Shown here piece by piece: positions 1-37,892 of a stretch of DNA of 64,000 nt (position 1 is the first letter of the stretch; each line of letters starts with the position of its first letter). The position numbers were made by a program, and so were the translations under genes. This DNA is from Bacteroidota bacterium (lineage in GTDB: Bacteria > Bacteroidota > Bacteroidia > B-17B0 > Aurantibacillaceae). Location of the stretch: assembly GCA_029237825.1 (NCBI GenBank), contig JAQZBQ010000010.1:62001-126000 (forward strand). The letters are read 5' to 3'. Below the pieces are notes generated by a model. It saw only the letters and a program-made list of their open reading frames with translations, made no database searches and had not been told where the DNA came from.

Positions 1-1638
1 ACCCATTGTTCCGGGAGTTTTCGTATCGTCGTTAACCATTTGAAGCGTAAAATTCCGTTCAATTTCCTGATAGGCAGAATTTGGAGCAATCACCAACGAA
101 ATGGAAACCGGTTGATACTCCTGTGCTTCAAAGTTTACTTTATAGGTTTTCCCCTTTACACCCGGAGCTAAAATCATTAAATATTTACCGGTTTTCTCAT
201 TAGGGCGAATATCCTGAAGTACCAAACCATTTTCATCCATCACTGTGATACGCGCATTAGCCGGATGTTTATTTTCACCGTTAAATCGGAGAAGGCCTTT
301 TAGTAAGGTTAATGGTTCACATACTGAGCGTTCAAAATCAATCCGGTAAATATCTTTATCCCCAATACCGCCTTTACGGTTCGAAGAAAGATAAGCGCGT
401 TTACCGTCAGCAGATTGTACGAAAAAAATATCATGATCCGGCGTATTAATAGGAGCCCTTAAATTTTCGGGTTCGCTCCATTTACCGTCAGCTCCTCGGG
501 TTGTTTTAAAAACATCAAATCCGCCCATGTTTTTATGCCCCTTTGAACTAAAAAACATCGTTACGCCGTCTGGATGAATAAAAGGCGCTTCTTCATCCTC
601 TTTCGTATTAATAGTTGGTCCCATATTAGTAGCCTTACTCCATTCGCCATTTGGTAATTTTTCGCAGCTCCAGATATCTCTACCGCCAAATCCACCTTCT
701 TTTCTGTTACTCACAAAGTAAAGCGTGTTTCCATCAACAGACATCGTGGCGTGCGTTTCCCAGTCTGGAGAGTTAACGCTTGCACCAATCGGCAGCAAAG
801 GTGACCATATTTCACCTTCTAACCGGCTGTAATAAATATCCCCGCCATTCACGTCCTTGTATACAAAAAGCAAACTTCCATCGGGTGATAGGCCAATATT
901 TGCTTCATTGCCCGAGGTGTTGATGGTTGACGCAATTTGTGTGGCTTCGCCCCAGCTACCGTTTCTACGCTTGGTGCTCAGATAAATGTCTTCCATATAT
1001 AACCCGTCATCCGATTTTTCCCGACCCGTACTACCAGGCCGTCTTGAGGTAAATATCAGTGTTGATTCATCCGCAGAAATTACCGGTGCATAATCCGGGA
1101 AAGGAGAATTGATACTATCCCCTAAATTTACTACCCTTACCCTTGCGGTATCTTTTGTAAATTCCTGGGCATTGGTGTTTTTCTGAAGTTCTTTATCTAG
1201 TTCTGCTGTAAGGGAAGGATTTCTGTCGCCAACCTGTTCTTTGAACTTTTGGAAATTGACATAGGAAGCAATAAAATTATAATTTAATCGATAGGCTTCC
1301 GCCAGATAATAAAATGCCTGATCGGACGCTCTTTTTTCCAATGGGTTTTCAGGAGAGTAATTATGTGTTACATTTTTTACCGCCCTTTCAAGGTGATACA
1401 CTGCTTTCTCTTTTTCAGGCGATTGCAGGTAACATAAACCCAGCTTATAATTGATATTAGCTGAACTCGAATCAATTTGATAAGCCTCCTGAAAACTTCT
1501 AAGAGCCAAGGGATAATTTTCTTCCAGCATCAGGTAATTACCCTCAACAAACTTTTCCCGATACAATGTTTTATTACTCTGAGAATGAACGCTATGAGTT
1601 GTAATACCTAAAACAAAAAATAAAATGATTTTCTTCAT
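1..1638 (-). CDS. PorE-like T9SS protein: TPR + PD40 beta-propeller + regulatory-like domain (C-terminus off window)
   Basis: Reads from an ATG at 1638 leftward and stays open to base 1, so the C-terminus is missing. Residues 1-20 form a signal peptide. Residues about 20-130 look like TPR helices. Residues about 165-440 contain PD40/WD40-type blades with repeated patterns such as LYFVSNRKEGGFGGRDIW and MFFSSKGHKNMGGFDVF. From about residue 440 comes a carboxypeptidase-regulatory-like beta domain (LLKGLLRF..., GKYLMILAPG). This order matches PorE (P. gingivalis PG1058 family), a periplasmic/OM-associated part of the type IX secretion machine that normally ends in an OmpA-like peptidoglycan-binding domain. 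That domain would lie beyond the left edge and is not seen. It is divergent from the PorQ/PorV-like gene at 1795. The family is confident; the exact PorE orthology is inferred, since many Bacteroidota OmpA paralogues share this layout. Confidence 0.8.
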   Translation of the reverse strand, partial: MKKIILFFVLGITTHSVHSQSNKTLYREKFVEGNYLMLEENYPLALRSFQEAYQIDSSSANINYKLGLCYLQSPEKEKAVYHLERAVKNVTHNYSPENPLEKRASDQAFYYLAEAYRLNYNFIASYVNFQKFKEQVGDRNPSLTAELDKELQKNTNAQEFTKDTARVRVVNLGDSINSPFPDYAPVISADESTLIFTSRRPGSTGREKSDDGLYMEDIYLSTKRRNGSWGEATQIASTINTSGNEANIGLSPDGSLLFVYKDVNGGDIYYSRLEGEIWSPLLPIGASVNSPDWETHATMSVDGNTLYFVSNRKEGGFGGRDIWSCEKLPNGEWSKATNMGPTINTKEDEEAPFIHPDGVTMFFSSKGHKNMGGFDVFKTTRGADGKWSEPENLRAPINTPDHDIFFVQSADGKRAYLSSNRKGGIGDKDIYRIDFERSVCEPLTLLKGLLRFNGENKHPANARITVMDENGLVLQDIRPNEKTGKYLMILAPGVKGKTYKVNFEAQEYQPVSISLVIAPNSAYQEIERNFTLQMVNDDTKTPGTMG

Positions 1639-26214: not shown

Positions 26215-27585
26215 ATGCTCTTTAAAAAGAGAATCATAGTAATAATTTTCTGCTTTCTCACATTCCCTATATGTGCGCAATCTGATGGAGGTATCGCCTC
26301 GGGTTCGCAAACATTTTGCGATACCATTAATTCAGGATTCGTTTCGATTTCTGGATATGTTGGCAATGTTGTTACATGGCAGTATTCTACAAATGGAGGT
26401 GCGACATGGACTAGCAACGGGAATACAACAACGAGTCAAAGTTATTTCAATACCAAAACAAGTACCTGTTTCAGGGCTATTGTAAAAAGTGGCTCATTCC
26501 CGGCAGACACTTCAACAACCGCTTGTATTACTGTTTATATGCCTTCTGTTGGAGGTACCATTTTGGGCGGAGGTACGTATTGCGGTGGTTCGGGAACAGG
26601 AAATCTGTATTTAACCGGAAATATCGGGAATGTACTTTACTGGCAGTCCTCAGTAAATGGTGGTTTAAACTGGACAAATATTTCAAATACTTCAACTATT
26701 TTGTCGTATTCAAATATTAGTCAGGATATAATTTACAGAGCAATTGTTCAGAACAGTGTTTTTTGTTTAAGAGACACGTCCTCTGTTGCAGGCTTCACAA
26801 TCAACCCGGTTACAGTAGCAGGAACAATATCTGTTATTGGAACCAACACAGTGTGTTATGCAAGTAATACAAACACATTTAACCTTTCAGGAAACACCGG
26901 AAATGTGTTAAAGTGGGTTTCCTCAACGGATAATGGAATAACCTGGTCTGTAATATCAAATACAACAAGCACTTATATATCGTCTGATTTAACACAGACT
27001 ACGCTTATAAAAGCTGTTGTTCAAAGTGCTTCCTGTAGTATTGATAGTACCAATACCATTAAAATTAATGTAATTGCCCCGGCACTAGTAAATGCCGGCG
27101 CAGATACAACTATTAACCAGGGGCAAACCGTATCGCTCAATGGTTCTGGTGCAGGTGCGCCACTATGGTTTCCAACGGCCGCTCTCAGTAATCCTTCGAT
27201 TTTTAACCCCATCGCATCACCGTCAAGTACTACCGATTATATTCTAACTGTCACAGATGGGAACTCTTGCACAAATTCTGATACTGTAAGAGTGAACGTA
27301 CTTCCTCTCGATTACGATGGTGTAATTACAAATGTATTTTCTCCAAACGGAGACGGTATTAACGATTACTGGTACATCGAAAACATTCAGTACTATCCAA
27401 ATAATGAAGTAACGGTTTATAATATTTACGGAAACATTGTCTTCAATCAAAAGAATTACGCCAACGACTGGGGTGGTACCTATAACGGTGCGCCGCTGCC
27501 TGATGGTACTTATTATTATGTGTTGTTATTTACGGACACTGGTGCTACATTGAAGGGTTCACTTGATATTTTAAAAAATAAATAG
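26215..27585 (+). CDS. T9SS type B cargo protein with Ig-like repeats
   Basis: 456 residues with a signal peptide (residues 1-22, cut after PICAQ). Three related units of about 85 residues share a core of GNV..W..S.NGG..W..ISNT (near residues 45, 138 and 227), each with cysteines. A fourth Ig/PKD-like domain follows (ADTTINQGQTVSLNGSG). The last 95 residues are the gliding-motility-associated C-terminal domain, a type B sorting signal: NVFSPNGDGINDYWYI, VYNIYGNIVF, LPDGTYYYVLLF. Such domains direct export through the T9SS and need a PorP/SprF-family partner, encoded eight bases downstream. Likely a surface adhesin or matrix protein; the ligand is unknown. Confidence 0.88.
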   Translation: MLFKKRIIVIIFCFLTFPICAQSDGGIASGSQTFCDTINSGFVSISGYVGNVVTWQYSTNGGATWTSNGNTTTSQSYFNTKTSTCFRAIVKSGSFPADTSTTACITVYMPSVGGTILGGGTYCGGSGTGNLYLTGNIGNVLYWQSSVNGGLNWTNISNTSTILSYSNISQDIIYRAIVQNSVFCLRDTSSVAGFTINPVTVAGTISVIGTNTVCYASNTNTFNLSGNTGNVLKWVSSTDNGITWSVISNTTSTYISSDLTQTTLIKAVVQSASCSIDSTNTIKINVIAPALVNAGADTTINQGQTVSLNGSGAGAPLWFPTAALSNPSIFNPIASPSSTTDYILTVTDGNSCTNSDTVRVNVLPLDYDGVITNVFSPNGDGINDYWYIENIQYYPNNEVTVYNIYGNIVFNQKNYANDWGGTYNGAPLPDGTYYYVLLFTDTGATLKGSLDILKNK

Positions 27586-27593
27586 ATGTAGCT

Positions 27594-29027
27594 ATGAAGA
27601 AACTGCTACACATAATAATCTTTTTGTTCTTCGTCAATATTACAGTTGGCCAGCAGATTGTTGGATTTAGTCATTATTTTTATAAGCCAATGATTTACAA
27701 TCCTGCCTTCACGGGCAATACTGATGGAGCAAATCTTTTGCTTGTAAACCATACACAATGGACAGGTTTTAAAGGTGGGCCGCAATACAATATACTTTCG
27801 TTGGATGGCAGCTTGATCAATAAAAATACAGGTCTTGGTATAACCATTATCAGTGATAGAAAAGGGATAAATAACAGAATTGGAGGAAATATAAATTACT
27901 CTTATAAAATCAGATTTAAGGAAAAAATTCATTTGGCGCTGGGGCTTTCCATCGGAGGCATAAACCAATCGCTCGACTATTCCAAAGCGTTGTTAGAAAA
28001 TCCAAATGATCCGTCTTTATTTTCTAATAACCAAAGTAAATCAACTTTTGATGCCAATGTCGGACTGGCCTTTGTATGCAAAGGCTTCGAGCTGGGATTT
28101 GCAGTGCCTCAGCTCCCGAACAATAAAATATCTTATTCGGCGAATACTAATAGCCGTACGTTTTATACCCAAACCAGGCATTACATGGGGTCAATGAAAT
28201 ATAAATTCCTTCTTTCAAAATCCAAAGAAATAACGCTGTCTCCACTAGCGTTAGTGCGTTACGTGCCAAATGCTCCCATGCAGTACGATTGTAACATCAA
28301 CTTTGATTTTCAGAATAAATTCTGGGTTGGCGCCACATACAAAAACGACTATGCAATTGGCCTTAACCTTGGTGTGATTTTGTTTAAGCGTTTATCAATA
28401 GGGTATTCATATGATTATATCACTGGAAGTATCAGCAAATACTCTGGTTTAAGCCATGAAATACTCTTGAATTTTAAATTTACTAAAAAGAAAAAAGAAG
28501 TTCCTACAAACGAACAAGAGGAAGATGAGGAATTAGCACGGCTTAAGAAACAAGATTTAAATAAACTAATCATACAACGTTTACTTGCCAAAATTGAATA
28601 TGTGTTGGATAAGGAAAATACGACTCCAGCTGAAATTCAGGAACTCCTTGATGAAATTTCTGCGTTTCTGGATGATGATTCAACAGATCCTGCCCAGGAA
28701 ACATTAAACAAATACTATAAGTCTTTGAAAAACCAGGCAAAAGGAGAAATAAACGTTCTTGTAAAAGGAAGACTACTGCTGGACCCCGCAGACTCCACAC
28801 CGGATTATGGTGATGCAATGATAACAGTAAATGATCTTGAAAGTAAAACAGTCATAGCAACAAGCACTCCAACCAGGGAAGGAAAATATTACATTATCCT
28901 CAAGCCAGGCAGGCGATACCAGTTAACTATAGAAAAAAGTGGTTATCAAACATTACTTCGTAACGTAACCATTCCTGCTACATCCGAATCATACGAGTTA
29001 AATCAGGAAATCCAGTTAAAACGGTAA
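27594..29027 (+). CDS. PorP/SprF-family T9SS membrane protein with C-terminal periplasmic domain
   Basis: 477 residues. A signal peptide (cut near VGQQ) precedes a PorP/SprF barrel of about 280 residues with the hallmark FSHYFYKPMIYNPAFTG and later LSIGYSYDYITG. An ordinary PorP ends there, near 300-340 residues. This one continues through a charged helical linker (about 300-383, TPAEIQELLDEISAFLDDD) into a carboxypeptidase-regulatory-like domain at residues 384-477 (VLVKGRLLL, EGKYYIILKPGRRYQLTI). That domain resembles the one in the PorE-like protein at the window start. It follows its presumed cargo gene by eight bases. It probably receives that cargo at the outer membrane; the added domain should face the periplasm. 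Confidence 0.88.
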   Translation: MKKLLHIIIFLFFVNITVGQQIVGFSHYFYKPMIYNPAFTGNTDGANLLLVNHTQWTGFKGGPQYNILSLDGSLINKNTGLGITIISDRKGINNRIGGNINYSYKIRFKEKIHLALGLSIGGINQSLDYSKALLENPNDPSLFSNNQSKSTFDANVGLAFVCKGFELGFAVPQLPNNKISYSANTNSRTFYTQTRHYMGSMKYKFLLSKSKEITLSPLALVRYVPNAPMQYDCNINFDFQNKFWVGATYKNDYAIGLNLGVILFKRLSIGYSYDYITGSISKYSGLSHEILLNFKFTKKKKEVPTNEQEEDEELARLKKQDLNKLIIQRLLAKIEYVLDKENTTPAEIQELLDEISAFLDDDSTDPAQETLNKYYKSLKNQAKGEINVLVKGRLLLDPADSTPDYGDAMITVNDLESKTVIATSTPTREGKYYIILKPGRRYQLTIEKSGYQTLLRNVTIPATSESYELNQEIQLKR

Positions 29028-29128: not shown

Positions 29129-32100
29129 ATGCGCCCCACTCTACTCCTAATTCTATTATCGGTAATTCTATTTCCACTCGGATTATCCTCGCAGTGCGAC
29201 CCGACGACTCCTACGTTTACAGTTAATTTAACAGGCAACCCTAGCGGTACCTGGATAAGTCCGAATATTGTGAGAGATGGTGCATGTTGTGGCCAAAATC
29301 CGCGGTGTATTAAATTCATTATTACGCTTGATCCAATGGCGGCAGGGATTACGTTCACGTTTGCGTCAGGCGCCGTTCCTTCGGGAGCCCTGGAATATCA
29401 GATTGGATGTGCACTACCTCCAACCCCGGTTGGGCAACCGATTTGTTTGTCTGGCGTAGGACCACATGTATTAACTTTTTGTAAACCTGGCAATAATGCC
29501 AATACTTATGCCATAACGTCCATACCGCAAGCTGTAGGAGGAACAGATGCCAGCATTAATGACGGGTGTTCAAAACAGATTTTTGCGACCGGTTTTAACC
29601 CTGCTACTGTAAACTGGACTTCTATTTCTCCGGGTGCCCCCGGCGCATACAATAGTTATATGTCAAGCACCACAAGTGTATCACCAACAGTTACCGGAAC
29701 GAATTCATCGCCCCTTTATGTTGATTATAAAGTATGCGGGCAACCGGCAGCTCAATGTAATTTTAATACCGTATGTGATACTGTTCGGGTCTATTTTAAT
29801 CCCACTTTAGCGGTTAATATCATTCCTGTTAATCCTACAATTTGCTTTGGGCAAACATCCACAACGCTTACTGCAATTGGCGCAGGCGGAACGCCGCCTT
29901 ATAATTATTTATGGAATAACGTCAATCCTTCTCAGACAATCAACGTCGGTGTCGGCACATATAACGTTCAGTTAACGGACGGATCTGGATGTCCGCCCGT
30001 GTTTAACCAGGTCACTGTAACCGCCTTTTCAGTAGCTATCACAGCAAATGCCGGTGCCGATCAAATTAAATGTATACAAAGTCCCTTAGCAACTTTAAAC
30101 GGTACAGTTACTGGTGCAAGTGGAGGGATTTGGTCGGGTGGAACCGGTACCTTTTCGCCCAATAATACAACGTTAGCCAACATTACCTATTCGCCAACTG
30201 CAGCAGAACTTGCCAATGGTTTCGTAAATTTAATTCTAACAACCACAGGCAACGGAACGTGCCCTCCTAAATCTGATACGGTTAGAATTTCGTACCTGCC
30301 ATTTACTGGAGTTCCAACTGCTAGTGTTACAAATGTGAGTTGTTTTGGAGGTGCCAACGGTACCGCCGCCATCACCTTAAGTGGTGGAATAACACCATAC
30401 ACCTATCTCTGGAGTACATCTCCAACGCAAACTACTTCTTCCATAGCAAATTTACCAATTGGAACTTATTCTGTAACTATAAGGGATGGTATAGGATGTA
30501 CATTACCCACAACTGTAATGATAAATCAACCTCCTGTTCTTGCTGTAAATGCTACTGTGACGAATGTATCCTGTAATGGCGGCAACACAGGTTCAATTTC
30601 TTCTATGCCCAGCGGAGGAACTTCTCCCTACTCTTTTTCGTGGAGTCCTGGAGGCCAAACTACCCAAACTGCGACAGCCTTAACAGCCGGAAACTATTCT
30701 CTTACAGTAACTGACGCTCTGGGTTGTACTAGGACTGCAACTTATACGGTTACACAGCCACTTCCAATCACAAATACACTTGTTCCAACGCATGTATCTT
30801 GTTTTAATGGAAGTAATGGTACAGTTACCAGCACAGTCAGTGGAGGAACAACCCCTTATACTTTTTCATGGAGTCCGGGGGGAGCAACTTCTCAAAATGT
30901 TACTGGTTTGGTGGCAGGCATATATACATTAACAATCAAAGATAATTTAAATTGTATCTTAACAAATACGGTTTCTATTACTCAGCCTACTTTATTGGTA
31001 GCTTCAACAAGTATAACTAATGAAACCTGTGATTACCTAAACAATGGTACAGCAACAGCCAGTCAAACCGGTGGTACTGCTGGCTATATGTATTCATGGT
31101 CTCCAGGTGGGCAAACCACCGCTTCCATTTCAGGTCTTGCCAGTGGAACATACACAGTAGTGGTTACTGACAGCAAAGGATGTCAATCTACAGCATTAGC
31201 TACAATTGCACAACCAGCACCACTTGTGGTAGGATTTATTAACCAGGTAAACGTGAGTTGTTTTGGAGGAAGCGATGCCAGTATTGGAGCAAGCCCATCC
31301 GGTGGAACTCCTAACTACACTTATTCCTGGAGCCCGGGTGGAAGTACAAACTCCTCGTTAACTAACATTCCCATTGGTACGTATACAGTAAAAGTTACTG
31401 ATGCTAATTCCTGTATTGCCACAAATACGGTAACTATTATTCAACCAACAGATATTGTCACAACCAATACAATTGTTAACGTTTCATGTAATGGTGGAAG
31501 CAATGGTAGTATTTCAATTACACCTACCGGTGGTGTTTCTCCATATTCTTATCTCTGGACTGCGGGTGGACAAACCACTTCATCGGTATCGGGATTACCC
31601 ATTGGGACTTATTCGGTAACAGTTACAGATGCAAATGGATGCACGAAAAATTATGCTTATACAATCACTCAGCCACTTTCCATCGCCATTTCATTTACAC
31701 CAACCCATGTTTCTTGTTTCGGTGGTAGTGATGGAACGGCAACTTCTTCTGTATCCGGAGGAACTACACCATACTCATATAACTGGAGTCCAGGCGGAGC
31801 AACTACCCAAAATGTAACAGGATTAATTGCCGGTACCTATACCTTAACCGTTACCGACTTTTTAAATTGCATAGCCACAAATACAATTACAATAACAGAA
31901 CCAACTTTATTAGTTGCGTCAACCTCTGTTACCGACGAAACCTGCGATTACCTAAACAATGGTACAGCAACAGCCAGTCAAACTGGTGGTACTGCTGGCT
32001 ACACGTATTCATGGTCTCCAGGGGGGCAAACCACGGCATCCATTTCAGGTCTTGCTAGTGGAACATACACAGTAGTGGTTACTGACAGCAAAGGATGTCA

Positions 32101-35100
32101 ATCTACAGCGCTAGCTACAATTGCTCAACCCGCTCCACTTGTGGTAGGATTCATTAACCAGGTAAACGTGAGTTGTTTTGGAGGAAGCGATGCCAGTATT
32201 GGAGCAAGCCCATCGGGTGGAACTCCTAACTACACTTATTCCTGGAGCCCGGGTGGCACATCAACAAATGGATTATTTAATATTTCTGCTGGCATCTACA
32301 CCATAACAATTACCGATGCCCAGGCCTGTGTTGTCCAAAATACTATCGCAATTACTCAGCCTACAGCAGCATTAACTGTTTCTGCTATTTCTGTTTCCAC
32401 AACCTGCAACGGCGGTACTGATGGTTCAGCAACTGGTACTGCCGCTGGCGGTACCCCAGGATATACCTATAACTGGATGCCGGGTACAGTTACAGGCCAA
32501 ACCCTTTCTAACATTCCATCAGGAACCTATTCTGTGACAGCCACTGATATTATGGGCTGTACCATTACAAATACAGTTTTTGTAAATCAACCGGCTCCTA
32601 TTTTGCCAGTGACGACAAGCACTAACTCCACTTGCGGTAATTCAAACGGTATAGGAGCAGTGTCAGTTACAGGAGGAATCGGCCCATACACCTATTCATG
32701 GATGCCTTCTGGGGGAACCAATTCTGTGACAACAGGTGTTCCGGCAGGCGTATACTCTGTTTCAGTTACAGATGCGAATAATTGCGTGGCCGGCGAACTT
32801 TTATCGCTGGATGATAACAGCGGTCCAAGTTCAAGTATCTTCTCTATTTCTCATGTAACGTGTTTTGGCGGTAACGATGGTTCTGCAACGGCACAGATAA
32901 TTGGGGGCGTCGCACCAATTACATACACCTGGTTTCCAACAGGGGGTAATGGGATTACAGCAACAGGATTAACTGCCGGTACTTATTATATTATTGCCGA
33001 AGATGCAAATGGGTGTGTCTCCAGCGCAATTACAAGTCCATCAATTACACAACCTACTCAGGTAACTGAAACCATACTAACAACCAGCATTAGTTGTTTT
33101 GGCGGGACAAATGGAACTGCTACAGTTATTGCTACTGGCGGTACTCCTGGATATACATATACATGGATGCCGGGAGCAACAACAGGATCCGTAGTATCCG
33201 GGTTAGCGATGGGAATTTATTCAGTTCAAATTCAAGACTCAAATAATTGTGTCCATACAGCAACATACTCCATTTCCCAACCAACCGCTGGTCTTGCGGC
33301 CAGCGCTGCTTCTGGTTCAGTGTCGTGTTTTTCCGGAAGTAACGGTTCAGCCACTGTAACAGTTACAGGAGGAACAACTCCTTACAACTATAACTGGATG
33401 CCAGGGAATTTCAGTGGTCAGTCTATTTCCAATTTAACGGCAGGAACGTACACATCAACAGTAACAGATATTAATAATTGTATCACAACAGCAACCGTAA
33501 ATGTTATTCAACCTACAGCCATCGTGTTAACTACCGGAAGCGTTAATTCAAATTGTGGTGCGGCAAACGGTCAGGCTTCTGTTTCGGCTACAGGTGGAAA
33601 TGGTTCTTATACTTATTCATGGATACCGGTTGGCGGAACAAACCCTACAGCAAGTGGATTACAGGCAGGAACCTATACTGTGCAGGTTAAAGACATCAAT
33701 AGTTGTGTAAAAACAACGACTCAAACAGTTGCAGATAATCCAGGACCAACTGTCTCTGTGGTTTCTACTACGAGTGTGAGCTGTAATGGAGGCTCTAATG
33801 CTACCGCTACAGCAAGTGTTAGCGGTGGAATGCAGCCATTCACATATACCTGGTCTCCGGCAGGAGGTAATAACCAAACCGGCACTGGTTTATCAGCTGG
33901 AACATACACAGTGTTTATTACAGCGGCTAATGGCTGTCTGGCTAATGCTGTAACGCCATCAATTGCCCAGCCAACATCTTTATACAGTGTAATCTCAACC
34001 TCAAATGTCAGTTGCTTTGGCGGAAATAATGGTACTGCTACCATAACTACCGGTGGCGGAAGTCCGGGGTATACATACACATGGATGCCGGGCGCAACCA
34101 CTGGTTCAGTGGTAAGTGGTTTAAGTTCAGGGATTTTCTCAGTTCAGGTAAAGGATATCAATAACTGTATTCACACAAATACCTATTCTATTTCGCAGCC
34201 AACTGCAGCACTTTCAGCAAGCGCTACATCAAGTGCAGTTACTTGTTTTGGTGGGTCGAATGGAACAGCCACTGTTTCAGCAACTGGGGGAACCACTCCT
34301 TACAACTATAACTGGATGCCAATGAGTGTGAATAGCCAGACCGTTGGTGGGCTTTCAGTTGGTGTTTATACAGTAGGCGTAACTGATTTTAAAAATTGTA
34401 CTACAACAGCAACCGTGACAGTAAACCAACCTACGCTTGCGTTATCTGCAACCGCTAACAGTGTTCCCACGAGTTGTTCTGGTGGTTCCGATGGAACAGC
34501 AACTGTCACCCCAACCGGAGGTACTCCCGGATATACCTATTCCTGGTCGCCTACGGGAGGGAATTCACAAAGCGCATCAGGTCTCTTACCTGGGACTTAC
34601 GTGATAACAGTCAGCGATTTAAATGGCTGCCAGACAAGTGTGCCTGTAAACGTTTCTTCACCAACACCTGTAACGGGAACTTTAACAGGAATAGATGCAG
34701 CTTGTGGCTTGGCCAATGGATCGATCACGTCACAGGTTTCGGGTGGAATCGGACCATATACTTATACGTGGAGCCCTGTTTTATCAAATGCGTCGAGCGT
34801 AACGGGTCTTCTGCCAAACACGTACACACTCCAGATCGCTGATTCATATAATTGCATCAAAACACTCACCACAACCTTAATCAACATTGCAGGTCCTAGC
34901 CTCACCGTAACATCAGTACTTCATGATTCTTGTTATGGCGGCGATAATGGTGCAGCAACAATCAATATCACACAGGGAACTTTGCCTTATTCAACATCCT
35001 GGATGCCATATGGTGGAAATTCAACAACAGCATCGCAATTAACAGCAGGAACCTATACTGCTACGGTAACCGACGGACGAGGCTGTATTTCTTCTATAAC

Positions 35101-36874
35101 AGCTACAATCAATGAACCATCACCTGTGGCAATCTCAATTTCAACCGTAATTAACGTTTCGTGCCATAACGGAAATGATGGTTCAATCACTGTAATTGCT
35201 TCCGGTGGAACGCCTGCTTACACGTATTCCTGGCTACCATCGGGGACAGGTCCTACCATTAATAACTTATCATTAGGAACATATACTGTTAAAGCCACTG
35301 ATTCTCATTTTTGTACTTCTGTAATTTCTATTAATGTTGATCAGCCTACCCAACTCACATCAACAATTTCCAATGTGGTTAATCCAATCTGCTTTAATGG
35401 AACTGGCAATACTTCAGCATCGGTTACAGGCGGTACTGCTCCTTACAGTTATACGTGGACAACTACACCGCCACAACATGGAAGCACTGCAATGAACATT
35501 ACCAGTGGTACTTATACCGTGTATATTAATGACGCCAAAGGTTGCAGTACATCAAACACCGTTACCCTTACTCAGCCCACACAGGTTGTAACCCATGCAG
35601 GTTTAAATGATACAATTTGCTTAAATCTTTCCGGAGCAGTTACCGCCTCGGCAACTGGTGGATCAGGAGGTTATTATTATGCATGGCTACCGTCCGGAGC
35701 AATTAACGCAGGAACGCTTTCCATTAATCCCGCAACAGCAACAACTAATTATACCGTTATGGCTTTCGATCAAAACGGATGTGGTGGAGTTGCTGATACG
35801 GTAAAAGCTGTTGTTTATAATTTAACATCTGCTAATATCGAAGCTATCGCGATCACTCCAATTTGTCCTGGTCAGGGCACTACGATTTATGCCGCCGCAA
35901 CAGGATTAACCGGGCCATTAACTTATTCCTGGAATAACGGCCTGGGTGGTGGTCCGGGAGCATTTGTTACCATTCCAGCTCAACCTACCACTTATGTAGT
36001 TACTGTGACAAATGCATGTGGGGCCACCATAGTGGATTCAATCAGGGTTGATTTTTCACCGCCACCAACCATGGCCGTAAGTTCTAACGGAACCCTATCA
36101 TGTATCCCAACAGCGCTTACATTTTTTGATAATTCGGTTTCGGGTAATCCGAATGATCCAATCACTAATTGGAGCTGGAATTTTGGCGATGGCACTTCAT
36201 CCACCTCACAAAATCCAAGTCATATTTACACTTCACCAGGAACTTATTCTGTAACCCTTACTGTTTCAACAAACGGCGGCTGTACTAACAATACATCTTC
36301 ATCTCCTTTAGTAGTAAGTGCCTATCCGTTCCCAGTGGCATCCTTTACAGTAAATCAATATGAATTTAACTTGCCATACGACAAACTGATTTGTACAAAT
36401 CTTTCTACCGGGGCGGTATCCTATAATTGGAGTTTTGGAGACGGGGGAACATCAACGGCCGTGAACCCTCAGTATACCTATTCTACAGTTGGATTCTACA
36501 ATATTCAGCTCATTGCAACATCTGCATTCGGTTGTTCGGATACTGCAACCGTGAGAGTTTCTACAGACGCTTCAATAATTTTCCCGAATGCATTTACGCC
36601 TAATGAAGACGGAACCAACGATGGCTATTACATTCCGGGAAGTTTAAATAATGATATTTTCTTCCCATATGCTTCTGGTGTTATTGAATATAAATTTCAG
36701 ATTTTTAACCGTTGGGGCGAATTAATTTTTGAAACCGACGACTTTAAACAAGGCTGGAATGGATATTATAGGGGAAAAATTTGTCAGATAGGAGTATACG
36801 TATGGAAAGCATATGTAAAACTAAATAATGGCAAGGTTTTCAATTTAACCGGCGATGTTACTTTACTAAGATAA
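29129..36874 (+). CDS. Giant SprB-repeat adhesin with type B T9SS sorting domain
   Basis: 2581 residues with a signal peptide (about 1-21). Residues about 22-310 are a non-repeat head with one degenerate SprB unit. From residue 402 to about 2160 I count 23 SprB repeats of 75-77 residues with the consensus VSCFGG.NGTAT...GGT.PYTY.W.PGG...........AGTYTV.VTD...C......I.QP. Two PKD domains follow (NWSWNFGDGTS near 2345; NWSFGDGGTS near 2435). The last 95 residues are the gliding-motility-associated type B sorting domain (FPNAFTPNEDGTNDG, FQIFNRWGELIF, GVYVWKAYV). F. johnsoniae SprB is the mobile adhesin of gliding; this relative is probably a surface filament moved or displayed through the T9SS. 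The partner SprF-like gene is seven bases downstream. Confidence 0.93.
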   Translation: MRPTLLLILLSVILFPLGLSSQCDPTTPTFTVNLTGNPSGTWISPNIVRDGACCGQNPRCIKFIITLDPMAAGITFTFASGAVPSGALEYQIGCALPPTPVGQPICLSGVGPHVLTFCKPGNNANTYAITSIPQAVGGTDASINDGCSKQIFATGFNPATVNWTSISPGAPGAYNSYMSSTTSVSPTVTGTNSSPLYVDYKVCGQPAAQCNFNTVCDTVRVYFNPTLAVNIIPVNPTICFGQTSTTLTAIGAGGTPPYNYLWNNVNPSQTINVGVGTYNVQLTDGSGCPPVFNQVTVTAFSVAITANAGADQIKCIQSPLATLNGTVTGASGGIWSGGTGTFSPNNTTLANITYSPTAAELANGFVNLILTTTGNGTCPPKSDTVRISYLPFTGVPTASVTNVSCFGGANGTAAITLSGGITPYTYLWSTSPTQTTSSIANLPIGTYSVTIRDGIGCTLPTTVMINQPPVLAVNATVTNVSCNGGNTGSISSMPSGGTSPYSFSWSPGGQTTQTATALTAGNYSLTVTDALGCTRTATYTVTQPLPITNTLVPTHVSCFNGSNGTVTSTVSGGTTPYTFSWSPGGATSQNVTGLVAGIYTLTIKDNLNCILTNTVSITQPTLLVASTSITNETCDYLNNGTATASQTGGTAGYMYSWSPGGQTTASISGLASGTYTVVVTDSKGCQSTALATIAQPAPLVVGFINQVNVSCFGGSDASIGASPSGGTPNYTYSWSPGGSTNSSLTNIPIGTYTVKVTDANSCIATNTVTIIQPTDIVTTNTIVNVSCNGGSNGSISITPTGGVSPYSYLWTAGGQTTSSVSGLPIGTYSVTVTDANGCTKNYAYTITQPLSIAISFTPTHVSCFGGSDGTATSSVSGGTTPYSYNWSPGGATTQNVTGLIAGTYTLTVTDFLNCIATNTITITEPTLLVASTSVTDETCDYLNNGTATASQTGGTAGYTYSWSPGGQTTASISGLASGTYTVVVTDSKGCQSTALATIAQPAPLVVGFINQVNVSCFGGSDASIGASPSGGTPNYTYSWSPGGTSTNGLFNISAGIYTITITDAQACVVQNTIAITQPTAALTVSAISVSTTCNGGTDGSATGTAAGGTPGYTYNWMPGTVTGQTLSNIPSGTYSVTATDIMGCTITNTVFVNQPAPILPVTTSTNSTCGNSNGIGAVSVTGGIGPYTYSWMPSGGTNSVTTGVPAGVYSVSVTDANNCVAGELLSLDDNSGPSSSIFSISHVTCFGGNDGSATAQIIGGVAPITYTWFPTGGNGITATGLTAGTYYIIAEDANGCVSSAITSPSITQPTQVTETILTTSISCFGGTNGTATVIATGGTPGYTYTWMPGATTGSVVSGLAMGIYSVQIQDSNNCVHTATYSISQPTAGLAASAASGSVSCFSGSNGSATVTVTGGTTPYNYNWMPGNFSGQSISNLTAGTYTSTVTDINNCITTATVNVIQPTAIVLTTGSVNSNCGAANGQASVSATGGNGSYTYSWIPVGGTNPTASGLQAGTYTVQVKDINSCVKTTTQTVADNPGPTVSVVSTTSVSCNGGSNATATASVSGGMQPFTYTWSPAGGNNQTGTGLSAGTYTVFITAANGCLANAVTPSIAQPTSLYSVISTSNVSCFGGNNGTATITTGGGSPGYTYTWMPGATTGSVVSGLSSGIFSVQVKDINNCIHTNTYSISQPTAALSASATSSAVTCFGGSNGTATVSATGGTTPYNYNWMPMSVNSQTVGGLSVGVYTVGVTDFKNCTTTATVTVNQPTLALSATANSVPTSCSGGSDGTATVTPTGGTPGYTYSWSPTGGNSQSASGLLPGTYVITVSDLNGCQTSVPVNVSSPTPVTGTLTGIDAACGLANGSITSQVSGGIGPYTYTWSPVLSNASSVTGLLPNTYTLQIADSYNCIKTLTTTLINIAGPSLTVTSVLHDSCYGGDNGAATINITQGTLPYSTSWMPYGGNSTTASQLTAGTYTATVTDGRGCISSITATINEPSPVAISISTVINVSCHNGNDGSITVIASGGTPAYTYSWLPSGTGPTINNLSLGTYTVKATDSHFCTSVISINVDQPTQLTSTISNVVNPICFNGTGNTSASVTGGTAPYSYTWTTTPPQHGSTAMNITSGTYTVYINDAKGCSTSNTVTLTQPTQVVTHAGLNDTICLNLSGAVTASATGGSGGYYYAWLPSGAINAGTLSINPATATTNYTVMAFDQNGCGGVADTVKAVVYNLTSANIEAIAITPICPGQGTTIYAAATGLTGPLTYSWNNGLGGGPGAFVTIPAQPTTYVVTVTNACGATIVDSIRVDFSPPPTMAVSSNGTLSCIPTALTFFDNSVSGNPNDPITNWSWNFGDGTSSTSQNPSHIYTSPGTYSVTLTVSTNGGCTNNTSSSPLVVSAYPFPVASFTVNQYEFNLPYDKLICTNLSTGAVSYNWSFGDGGTSTAVNPQYTYSTVGFYNIQLIATSAFGCSDTATVRVSTDASIIFPNAFTPNEDGTNDGYYIPGSLNNDIFFPYASGVIEYKFQIFNRWGELIFETDDFKQGWNGYYRGKICQIGVYVWKAYVKLNNGKVFNLTGDVTLLR
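30563..31477 (+). repeat. SprB four-repeat block A1 (repeats 2-5)
   Basis: 915 bases, residues 479-783, four SprB repeats. Each repeat matches the repeat four positions later (block A2) better than it matches its immediate neighbours. The last 1.5 repeats are nearly identical to A2 at DNA level. Confidence 0.85.
31478..32392 (+). repeat. SprB four-repeat block A2 (repeats 6-9)
   Basis: 915 bases, residues 784-1088, exactly in phase with block A1. About 330 bases around 31939-32258 match 31024-31343 with about 15 differences counted by hand. Confidence 0.85.
32393..34232 (+). repeat. SprB four-repeat blocks B1 and B2 (repeats 10-13 and 14-17)
   Basis: Two consecutive blocks with a period of 306-307 residues. 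Corresponding members share features: repeats 13 and 17 both carry TWMPGATTGSVVSGL, and repeats 11 and 15 both carry a CG..NG start and a DN.GP linker. Block B matches diverge more than A1/A2. Confidence 0.7.
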
Positions 36875-36881
36875 TCCTGAA

Positions 36882-37892
36882 ATGAACAGATATTTAAAAT
36901 TCTTATTCCTCACTTTTTTATTCCGAACATTGGTTCACGGGCAGGACATGCACTTCACGCAATTCTATGCGTCGCCTCTTTATCTTAATCCAGCATTTAC
37001 GGGTGCCAATGTCTGTTCACGGGCAACACTGGTATATCGAAACCAATGGCCTGGAATTAAAACCACCTACCGCTCCTACCTCATGTCGCTCGACCATTAC
37101 CTTGTGAAACAGCACATTGGTGTGGGATTACAATGCGGTGTCGATGTTGCCGGAACGGGAGGTTTGAAAACAACCATCATTCATCCTTCGGTTGCGTATG
37201 AGGCTAAATTATCCAAAACGATAATGGTGCGTGCAGCACTTCAGCCAGGGGTAACTATTAAAAGTATTGATTTTGATAAATTACTATTTGGTGATCAAAT
37301 TGCACGGGGAGGAAATACCGGCGCTTCGTCAATTGCCACCGTGGAAACCCCTACTCAATCAAAAGCATTTTTTGATATCGGCGCTGGTGGATTGATATTT
37401 ACTACTAATTATTGGTTAGGAGCTTCGTTCTCTCATATCAATAAACCAAACGAATCTTTAACAGGTGCAGAAGGGGTAATTTTACCTATGAAAACGAGTA
37501 TTCATGGTGGCGGGAAATTTTATCTGAATCCTGATGAAAAAGATCCTGACCTTCGAAGATCAATGTCGTTAGTTATGCATTATCGCGGACAAGGTGAATT
37601 TGACCAGTTTGACATTGGAATATATTATACAATGAACGGAATAAATATGGGAGTTTGGTACAGAGGGCTACCTGGTGTTAAAGCTTATAAACCAGGATAT
37701 AGCAACAACGATGCAACAGCCCTAATCTTAGGTTACCAAAACGATCGCTTGAGCATCGGTTATAGCTACGATATTACTATTTCTCAATTACAACGCTTAA
37801 CGAAGGGCGCTCATGAATTAACCCTTTCATACCAGTTATGCAAGTTTAAACAGAAGCAAAAAAGAGTGTTAGTTTCTTGTCCTAAATTTTAA
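36882..37892 (+). CDS. PorP/SprF-family T9SS membrane protein
   Basis: 336 residues, the normal family length. Signal peptide 1-20, then the family hallmark QDMHFTQFYASPLYLNPAFTGAN, LVYRNQWPGI, a barrel with repeated GVGLQ and GAGGLIF strands, and the late LSIGYSYDITISQLQRLTKGAHEL. In F. johnsoniae the gene after sprB is sprF, needed for SprB secretion. Here it follows the SprB-like gene by seven bases, so it is very probably the dedicated partner for that adhesin. It lacks the C-terminal extension of the PorP at 27594. The stop faces the BamD-like gene with a three-base gap and no terminator is visible. Confidence 0.93.
   Translation: MNRYLKFLFLTFLFRTLVHGQDMHFTQFYASPLYLNPAFTGANVCSRATLVYRNQWPGIKTTYRSYLMSLDHYLVKQHIGVGLQCGVDVAGTGGLKTTIIHPSVAYEAKLSKTIMVRAALQPGVTIKSIDFDKLLFGDQIARGGNTGASSIATVETPTQSKAFFDIGAGGLIFTTNYWLGASFSHINKPNESLTGAEGVILPMKTSIHGGGKFYLNPDEKDPDLRRSMSLVMHYRGQGEFDQFDIGIYYTMNGINMGVWYRGLPGVKAYKPGYSNNDATALILGYQNDRLSIGYSYDITISQLQRLTKGAHELTLSYQLCKFKQKQKRVLVSCPKF

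Follow-up and report, generated by a model that had tools for sequence, protein, structure and literature searches.

PorP/SprF-like proteins, among them PorP of P. gingivalis and SprF and Fjoh_3951 of F. johnsoniae, act as shuttles of type B cargo of the T9SS, and the known SprF-like shuttles are encoded directly after their type B cargo (PMC12618676). PorP binds PG1035, a type B protein, and is itself bound directly by PorE, the OmpA domain of which binds peptidoglycan; PorK/PorN are also recovered in small amounts with purified PG1035-PorP (PMC9143113). In F. johnsoniae, type B substrates whose operon includes a PorE-like gene are static, and those without one are mobile (PMC12618676, PMC9143113). 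SprF is joined to the moving GldK by a disulfide through cysteines in its short C-terminal tail (PMC12635249).

In this study, we analyzed a 64,000-nucleotide stretch of DNA from a Bacteroidota bacterium (the window), in which the gene at 27594-29027 encodes a carrier that shares with these shuttles the barrel family, the gene order and the presumed role as carrier and anchor. Typical PorP/SprF proteins end soon after the last strand, whereas this carrier continues into a 180-residue helical and CRD tail; unlike SprF, which has a CXC motif for GldK in its short tail, it contains no cysteine after residue 296, and the SprF-type motif is thus absent. The features concerned are as follows.

16-315, minus strand: first CRD of a PorE-like protein that is truncated at the window start (profile and alignment)
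26215-27585, plus strand: type B T9SS cargo, 456 aa, with a CHU_C/TIGR04131 sorting domain at residues 371-450
27594-29027, plus strand: PorP/SprF carrier with CRD tail, 477 aa (Pfam and NCBIfam; AF2 full-length model, pLDDT 87.4)
27594-27650, plus strand: signal peptide of the carrier, residues 1-19 (by sequence; helix 2-12 in the model)
27657-28481, plus strand: 14-strand FadL/PorV-type outer-membrane barrel, residues 22-296 (PF11751, AF2 strands, Foldseek)
28491-28751, plus strand: helical linker, residues 300-386 (AF2 model; 61-83% identity among three species)
28752-29024, plus strand: PorE-type CRD, a transthyretin-like beta sandwich, residues 387-477 (profile, alignment, AF2 model)
29129-36874, plus strand: giant SprB-like repeat protein with a type B sorting domain, 2581 aa (NCBIfam)
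36882-37892, plus strand: ordinary short PorP/SprF, 336 aa, with a cysteine-containing tail (..QLCKFKQKQKRVLVSCPKF)

Architecture of the carrier and its CRD tail

Barrel and long tail lie in one reading frame without an intervening stop, in agreement with the initial annotation, which had described a PorP/SprF barrel, a helical linker and a C-terminal beta domain in a single ORF. The barrel scored above the curated PorP/SprF family cut-offs in both PF11751 (residues 19-294, E 1.3e-64, 218.8 bits against 22.3) and TIGR03519 (residues 1-296, E 2e-72, 244.1 bits against 90.55). Fourteen strands were placed at residues 46-296 in the full-length model, and the top Foldseek matches were FadL and the T9SS complex chains 8gl6_F and 6h3i_F; chain F of these translocon complexes we take to be PorV. 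No solved PorP/SprF structure was found by sequence search. Following the Bacteroidetes Q-rule, the mature carrier probably starts at Gln20. The other PorPs of the same genome are open frames of 310-365 aa without such a tail, which bears out the earlier view that ordinary PorPs end at the barrel. An assembly chimera or frameshift artefact was ruled out, because fusion and gene order are repeated in two other assemblies, from two other species, and linker and CRD have a dN much lower than dS.

The tail gave a weak match to Pfam CarboxypepD_reg (E 1.9e-4, under the gathering score), and a profile of it matched carboxypeptidase M by sequence among PDB entries (E 1.2e-6). Residues 300-477, modeled with AF2 at pLDDT 87, formed three helices and a seven-strand sandwich, of which residues 388-476 superposed on the transthyretin-like domain of carboxypeptidase D (5aq0) with Z 10.9 and an rmsd of 2.0 A over 79 residues; the fold also resembles the N-terminal extension domain of SusCdex (9hfj, Z 9.4). 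These carboxypeptidase and SusC domains share the fold with the carrier CRD (Z 9-11) but stand in another protein context, at a sequence identity of about 10-28%.

The type of the CRD was assigned from its sequence relatives. In tblastn against its own genome, the tail region of the carrier matched proteins of 520-761 aa (best E 2.1e-7). Further loci were fetched because the tail matched them, and the fetch covered 60 whole genomes, so other CRD families could have turned up. By profile in these loci, all 35 distinct proteins with a related CRD outside the fused proteins contained a PD40 propeller, and 17 of them an OmpA domain; it is thus common for a PorE-like protein to end with the CRD, 18 of the 35 examined having no OmpA match. 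The gene at the window start, through which the window edge cuts, encodes as a whole a 760-aa PorE-like protein of the order TPR-PD40-CRD-CRD-OmpA, and the motif pair singled out in the initial annotation, EGKYYIILKPGRRYQLTI in the carrier and TGKYLMILAPGVKGKTYKV in the window-start protein, falls in the same alignment columns. By sequence, then, the carrier CRD is of the PorE type, as the initial annotation had proposed, and a chance resemblance of the tail to PorE was ruled out by profile, fold and neighbour analysis. PorE-like here denotes domain make-up and not orthology, since no protein of three congeneric genomes attains the cut-off of the NCBI PorE model.

PorE and PorE-like proteins (TPR-propeller-CRD-OmpA) share this CRD type and the same proposed job of joining PorP to the periplasm or wall. 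PorE is, however, a separate protein, whereas the CRD of the carrier is covalently joined to the barrel and comes without TPR, beta-propeller and OmpA. Pfam found no TPR, PD40 propeller or OmpA domain in the carrier; judged by domain content it is not a PorE, as three of the four defining domains are missing, and lack of OmpA closes the known PorE route to peptidoglycan.

By sequence comparison, the module of linker and CRD also occurs beyond PorP. In genome G404, a 1222-aa secreted protein (L103:5461-9129, minus strand), which by eye is probably an outer-membrane barrel, has the same helical linker and CRD as its C-terminus; next come a gene that matches SPOR weakly (E 0.002, below cutoff) and genes for an FKBP isomerase of four domains and an OmpA protein. 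A stand-alone 202-aa secreted protein of genome G134 (L104:6948-7556, plus strand) carries the same CRD at its end, with a diverged helical part.

Cargo, neighboring genes and conservation in the genus

The carrier gene lies directly downstream of the type B gene 26215-27585, the position of a type B shuttle, and the sorting domain of this cargo was recognized by CHU_C (E 2.8e-25) and TIGR04131 (E 2.5e-19). Given this arrangement, the cargo is presumed to be the cognate substrate of the carrier. It aligns over its full length, at 44-55% identity, with cargos upstream of PorP-SPOR cassettes elsewhere, comprising both CRD/SPOR tandem loci and lone SPOR-tailed carriers.

Two of 19 congeneric genomes contained this fusion with its gene order kept; with the species of the window, this makes three of 20 in the genus. 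The conserved order runs from a zinc-ribbon protein through the type B cargo (458-459 aa) and the CRD-tailed PorP to the SprB-like giant, and is closed, where the contig reaches, by a short PorP ending CPKF. Identity among the three species was 61-83% in the linker and 49-66% in the CRD. Across linker and CRD, dN was 0.15-0.48 and dS was saturated; the low dN relative to dS indicates that this part of the protein is under purifying selection.

The SprB-like giant forms the next cargo and carrier pair of the conserved cluster, with gene order kept in L058/L059. The short PorP at 36882-37892, paired with this 2581-aa protein, has two cysteines in its tail (..LCKFKQKQKRVLVSCPKF), close to where SprF has its CXC motif but with different spacing, and may be the track-linked, mobile carrier of the cluster. 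A scan of the window ORFs detected neither a SPOR nor an OmpA gene, the OmpA part of the window-start gene lying outside; the whole genome encodes seven SPOR proteins and many PorE-like proteins. Elsewhere in this genome, a short PorP stands beside a separate 274-aa SPOR protein (L060:4953-6776, minus strand), the same parts as in SPOR-tailed PorPs but unfused, and another locus (L051:5841-13000, minus strand) combines a type B cargo, a PorE-like TPR-PD40-CRD protein without OmpA and a PorP ending SCPKF.

Tail types across Bacteroidia and separate PorE-like adaptors

Long tails are a minority among PorPs. Of the roughly 150 PorP frames listed from an even draw of 25 Bacteroidia genomes, about 14 reached at least 434 aa, and the possibility that nearly all PorPs carry a long tail was ruled out. 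The survey across the class scored seven candidates per genome, which makes the counts of long tails lower bounds. Among 47 collected long tails, a Pfam SPOR domain was found in 32 (E up to 0.05) and TPR repeats in seven; OmpA, CRD and one GldN-like domain were rare ends. SPOR is a peptidoglycan-binding fold. The GldN-like domain (PF19841, E 1e-9) forms the C-terminus of a PorP/SprF barrel protein encoded downstream of a type B gene in genome G134 (L120:6767-8146, minus strand). Two further PorPs (L112:5756-7693 and L114:6376-8313) have a cysteine-rich thrombospondin type 3-like segment ahead of the SPOR domain, and no type B gene was recognized next to them. A search confined to open-access literature found no paper on PorP-like proteins with SPOR, OmpA or CRD tails.

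At least eight distinct PorPs are CRD-tailed: three in the window genus and five in more distant Bacteroidia (L100, L101, L102, L228 and L235). All five of the latter adjoin a SPOR-tailed PorP, with one small ORF between the carriers at two loci. Four of the five loci show a type B cargo gene upstream; the contig of L228 stops short of that position. No SPOR-tailed carrier was found at the window locus or the two congeneric loci. The SPOR-tailed PorP-like proteins (such as L100:6218-7657 and L102:9136-10557) have the closest barrels, homologous cargo and a long periplasmic tail, but end in SPOR where the present carrier ends in CRD. In barrel trees, the CRD-tailed carriers are nested in the SPOR-tailed clade (99-100% SH-aLRT), whose tails mostly end in SPOR. 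This nesting makes it most likely that a SPOR tail was exchanged for a CRD tail, with at least two changes on supported branches. Tandem copies within one genome sometimes group together rather than by tail type, a pairing that suggests gene conversion or recent duplication.

Long-tailed and short carriers differed in their neighbors. In a set of 112 PorPs (47 long-tailed and 65 short), with neighbors counted on the same strand within two genes, a PorE-like gene adjoined none of the 47 long-tailed but 19 of the 65 short carriers (Fisher p 1.3e-5, related sequences counted). Among carriers immediately preceded by a type B gene, the figures were 0 of 41 and 14 of 30, respectively (p 6e-7, again counting related sequences). 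A paired test on the tree for replacement of PorE by the tail comprised 3-4 independent contrasts and gave no significance. The most informative case is a reversal: six short PorPs, which seem to have lost the tail, are nested in the long-tail clade (100% SH-aLRT as a group), and all six have a downstream PorE-like gene ending in SPOR:

L217-L220, L222 and L223 (e.g., L219:1744-3729), directly downstream of the short nested PorPs: PorE-like proteins with a SPOR end in place of OmpA

Pfam recognized the order TPR-PD40-SPOR in all three of these proteins that were searched, and a weak CRD in two. Where the tail is absent, CRD and SPOR thus occur in line in a separate protein. This cross-genome pattern agrees with a module built in cis in place of a separate adaptor, and carriers with built-in tails form a scattered set, which suggests that these bacteria swap built-in and separate tethers. 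Tail cysteines were rejected as a marker of static or mobile carriers: they occur in 5 of 41 long and 4 of 30 short type B-paired carriers, without difference, and their absence is not specific, as they are also missing from most short type B-paired carriers.

The initial annotation had also envisaged a barrel carrying its own PorE-type module, with no separate adaptor. This idea stood in part: the in-cis pattern agrees with it, long-tailed carriers being without a PorE-like neighbor and the tail-less nested ones having one, but only one of the four PorE domains is present in the tail.

Possible roles of the tail

The best reading of the barrel, the cargo neighbor, the absence of a tail cysteine and of a PorE neighbor, and the CRD in cis is that of a carrier whose own tail tethers it in the periplasm for static display. 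We slightly favor a role of the 27594-29027 protein as the dedicated shuttle of the 26215 cargo, its tail replacing a PorE-like adaptor and reaching a wall-linked partner. The barrel would pick up the 26215 substrate at the outer-membrane translocon and keep hold of it through the C-terminal sorting domain. Helical linker and CRD would hang into the periplasm, because both ends of a 14-strand barrel should face that side, and would take over in cis the job of the PorE-like adaptor that other carriers have as a separate gene product: to connect the carrier, once loaded, with a wall-linked partner in the periplasm. We know of no peptidoglycan-binding activity of CRDs, and the tail has neither OmpA nor SPOR. 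With no SPOR or OmpA gene among the window ORFs, a wall-linked partner would have to come from a gene outside the window; the CRD would be a protein-docking rather than a wall-binding domain. The cargo would accordingly be displayed in place and not moved along the gliding track.

The initial annotation had instead connected the cargo exit to the periplasmic ring, the CRD tail docking the carrier on the moving PorK/N (GldK/N) ring or track and so linking exit to motor. The joining of the SprF C-tail to GldK (PMC12635249) and the small amounts of PorK/PorN with purified PG1035-PorP (PMC9143113) are consistent with such docking, and the GldN-like tail of the related carrier L120:6767-8146 means that tail-to-ring fusions exist. 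However, the present tail has neither a cysteine for an SprF-type disulfide nor similarity to GldN, and its CRD belongs to PorE-like wall-linked adaptors, PorE-linked substrates looking static (PMC12618676). Nothing ties the CRD tail to PorK/N, and we consider this link quite unlikely. The tail could also be a regulatory or assembly domain that gates, stabilizes or times the carrier at the translocon without anchoring it, as the periplasmic CRD at the N-terminus of SusC-type barrels does. The fold match to the SusCdex extension points in this direction, as do the linker and CRD on the unrelated L103 protein and the CRD on L104, by which the domain is not tied to T9SS carriers; but most homologous carriers have SPOR in the place of the CRD, or a PorE-like neighbor if tail-less, which argues for tethering and leaves a purely regulatory tail unlikely. 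We consider a neutral fusion with no function very improbable: the tail occurs in only three of the 20 species in the genus, but linker and CRD are under purifying selection in these three species and the tail persists in several families.

The frequent pairing of the two tail types raises the further possibility of an adaptor split between two carriers, in which CRD- and SPOR-tailed carriers share one cargo, SPOR holding the wall and CRD docking, with an unlinked SPOR protein taking the second part in the window genus. Five of the eight CRD-tailed carriers adjoin a SPOR-tailed one, four of them with one type B cargo gene upstream; CRD is followed by SPOR in one chain in the PorE-like neighbors of related carriers; the CRD-bearing L103 gene precedes the weak SPOR match; and seven SPOR proteins are encoded in the genome of the window. 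Against this, the window locus and those of two congeners are without a SPOR-tailed carrier, and contact between the two tails is putative, so we hold a division of this kind to be improbable here. Type B carriers in general may be modular, with a swappable built-in tether (SPOR, TPR-SPOR, OmpA, CRD or GldN) that replaces the link to PorE or the ring, the CRD form being the docking half of a split PorE and the SPOR half sitting on a second carrier; we put this forward tentatively, as a possible but doubtful generalization.

The wider family of tailed carriers is of more interest than the single protein at 27594-29027, as it touches the question of what fixes or moves surface-displayed T9SS proteins. 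In current models, a separate PorE adaptor makes for static display and the cysteine link between SprF and GldK for mobility. Carriers with built-in tails would be natural fusions that name the link directly, and the tail would thereby predict the fate of the cargo.
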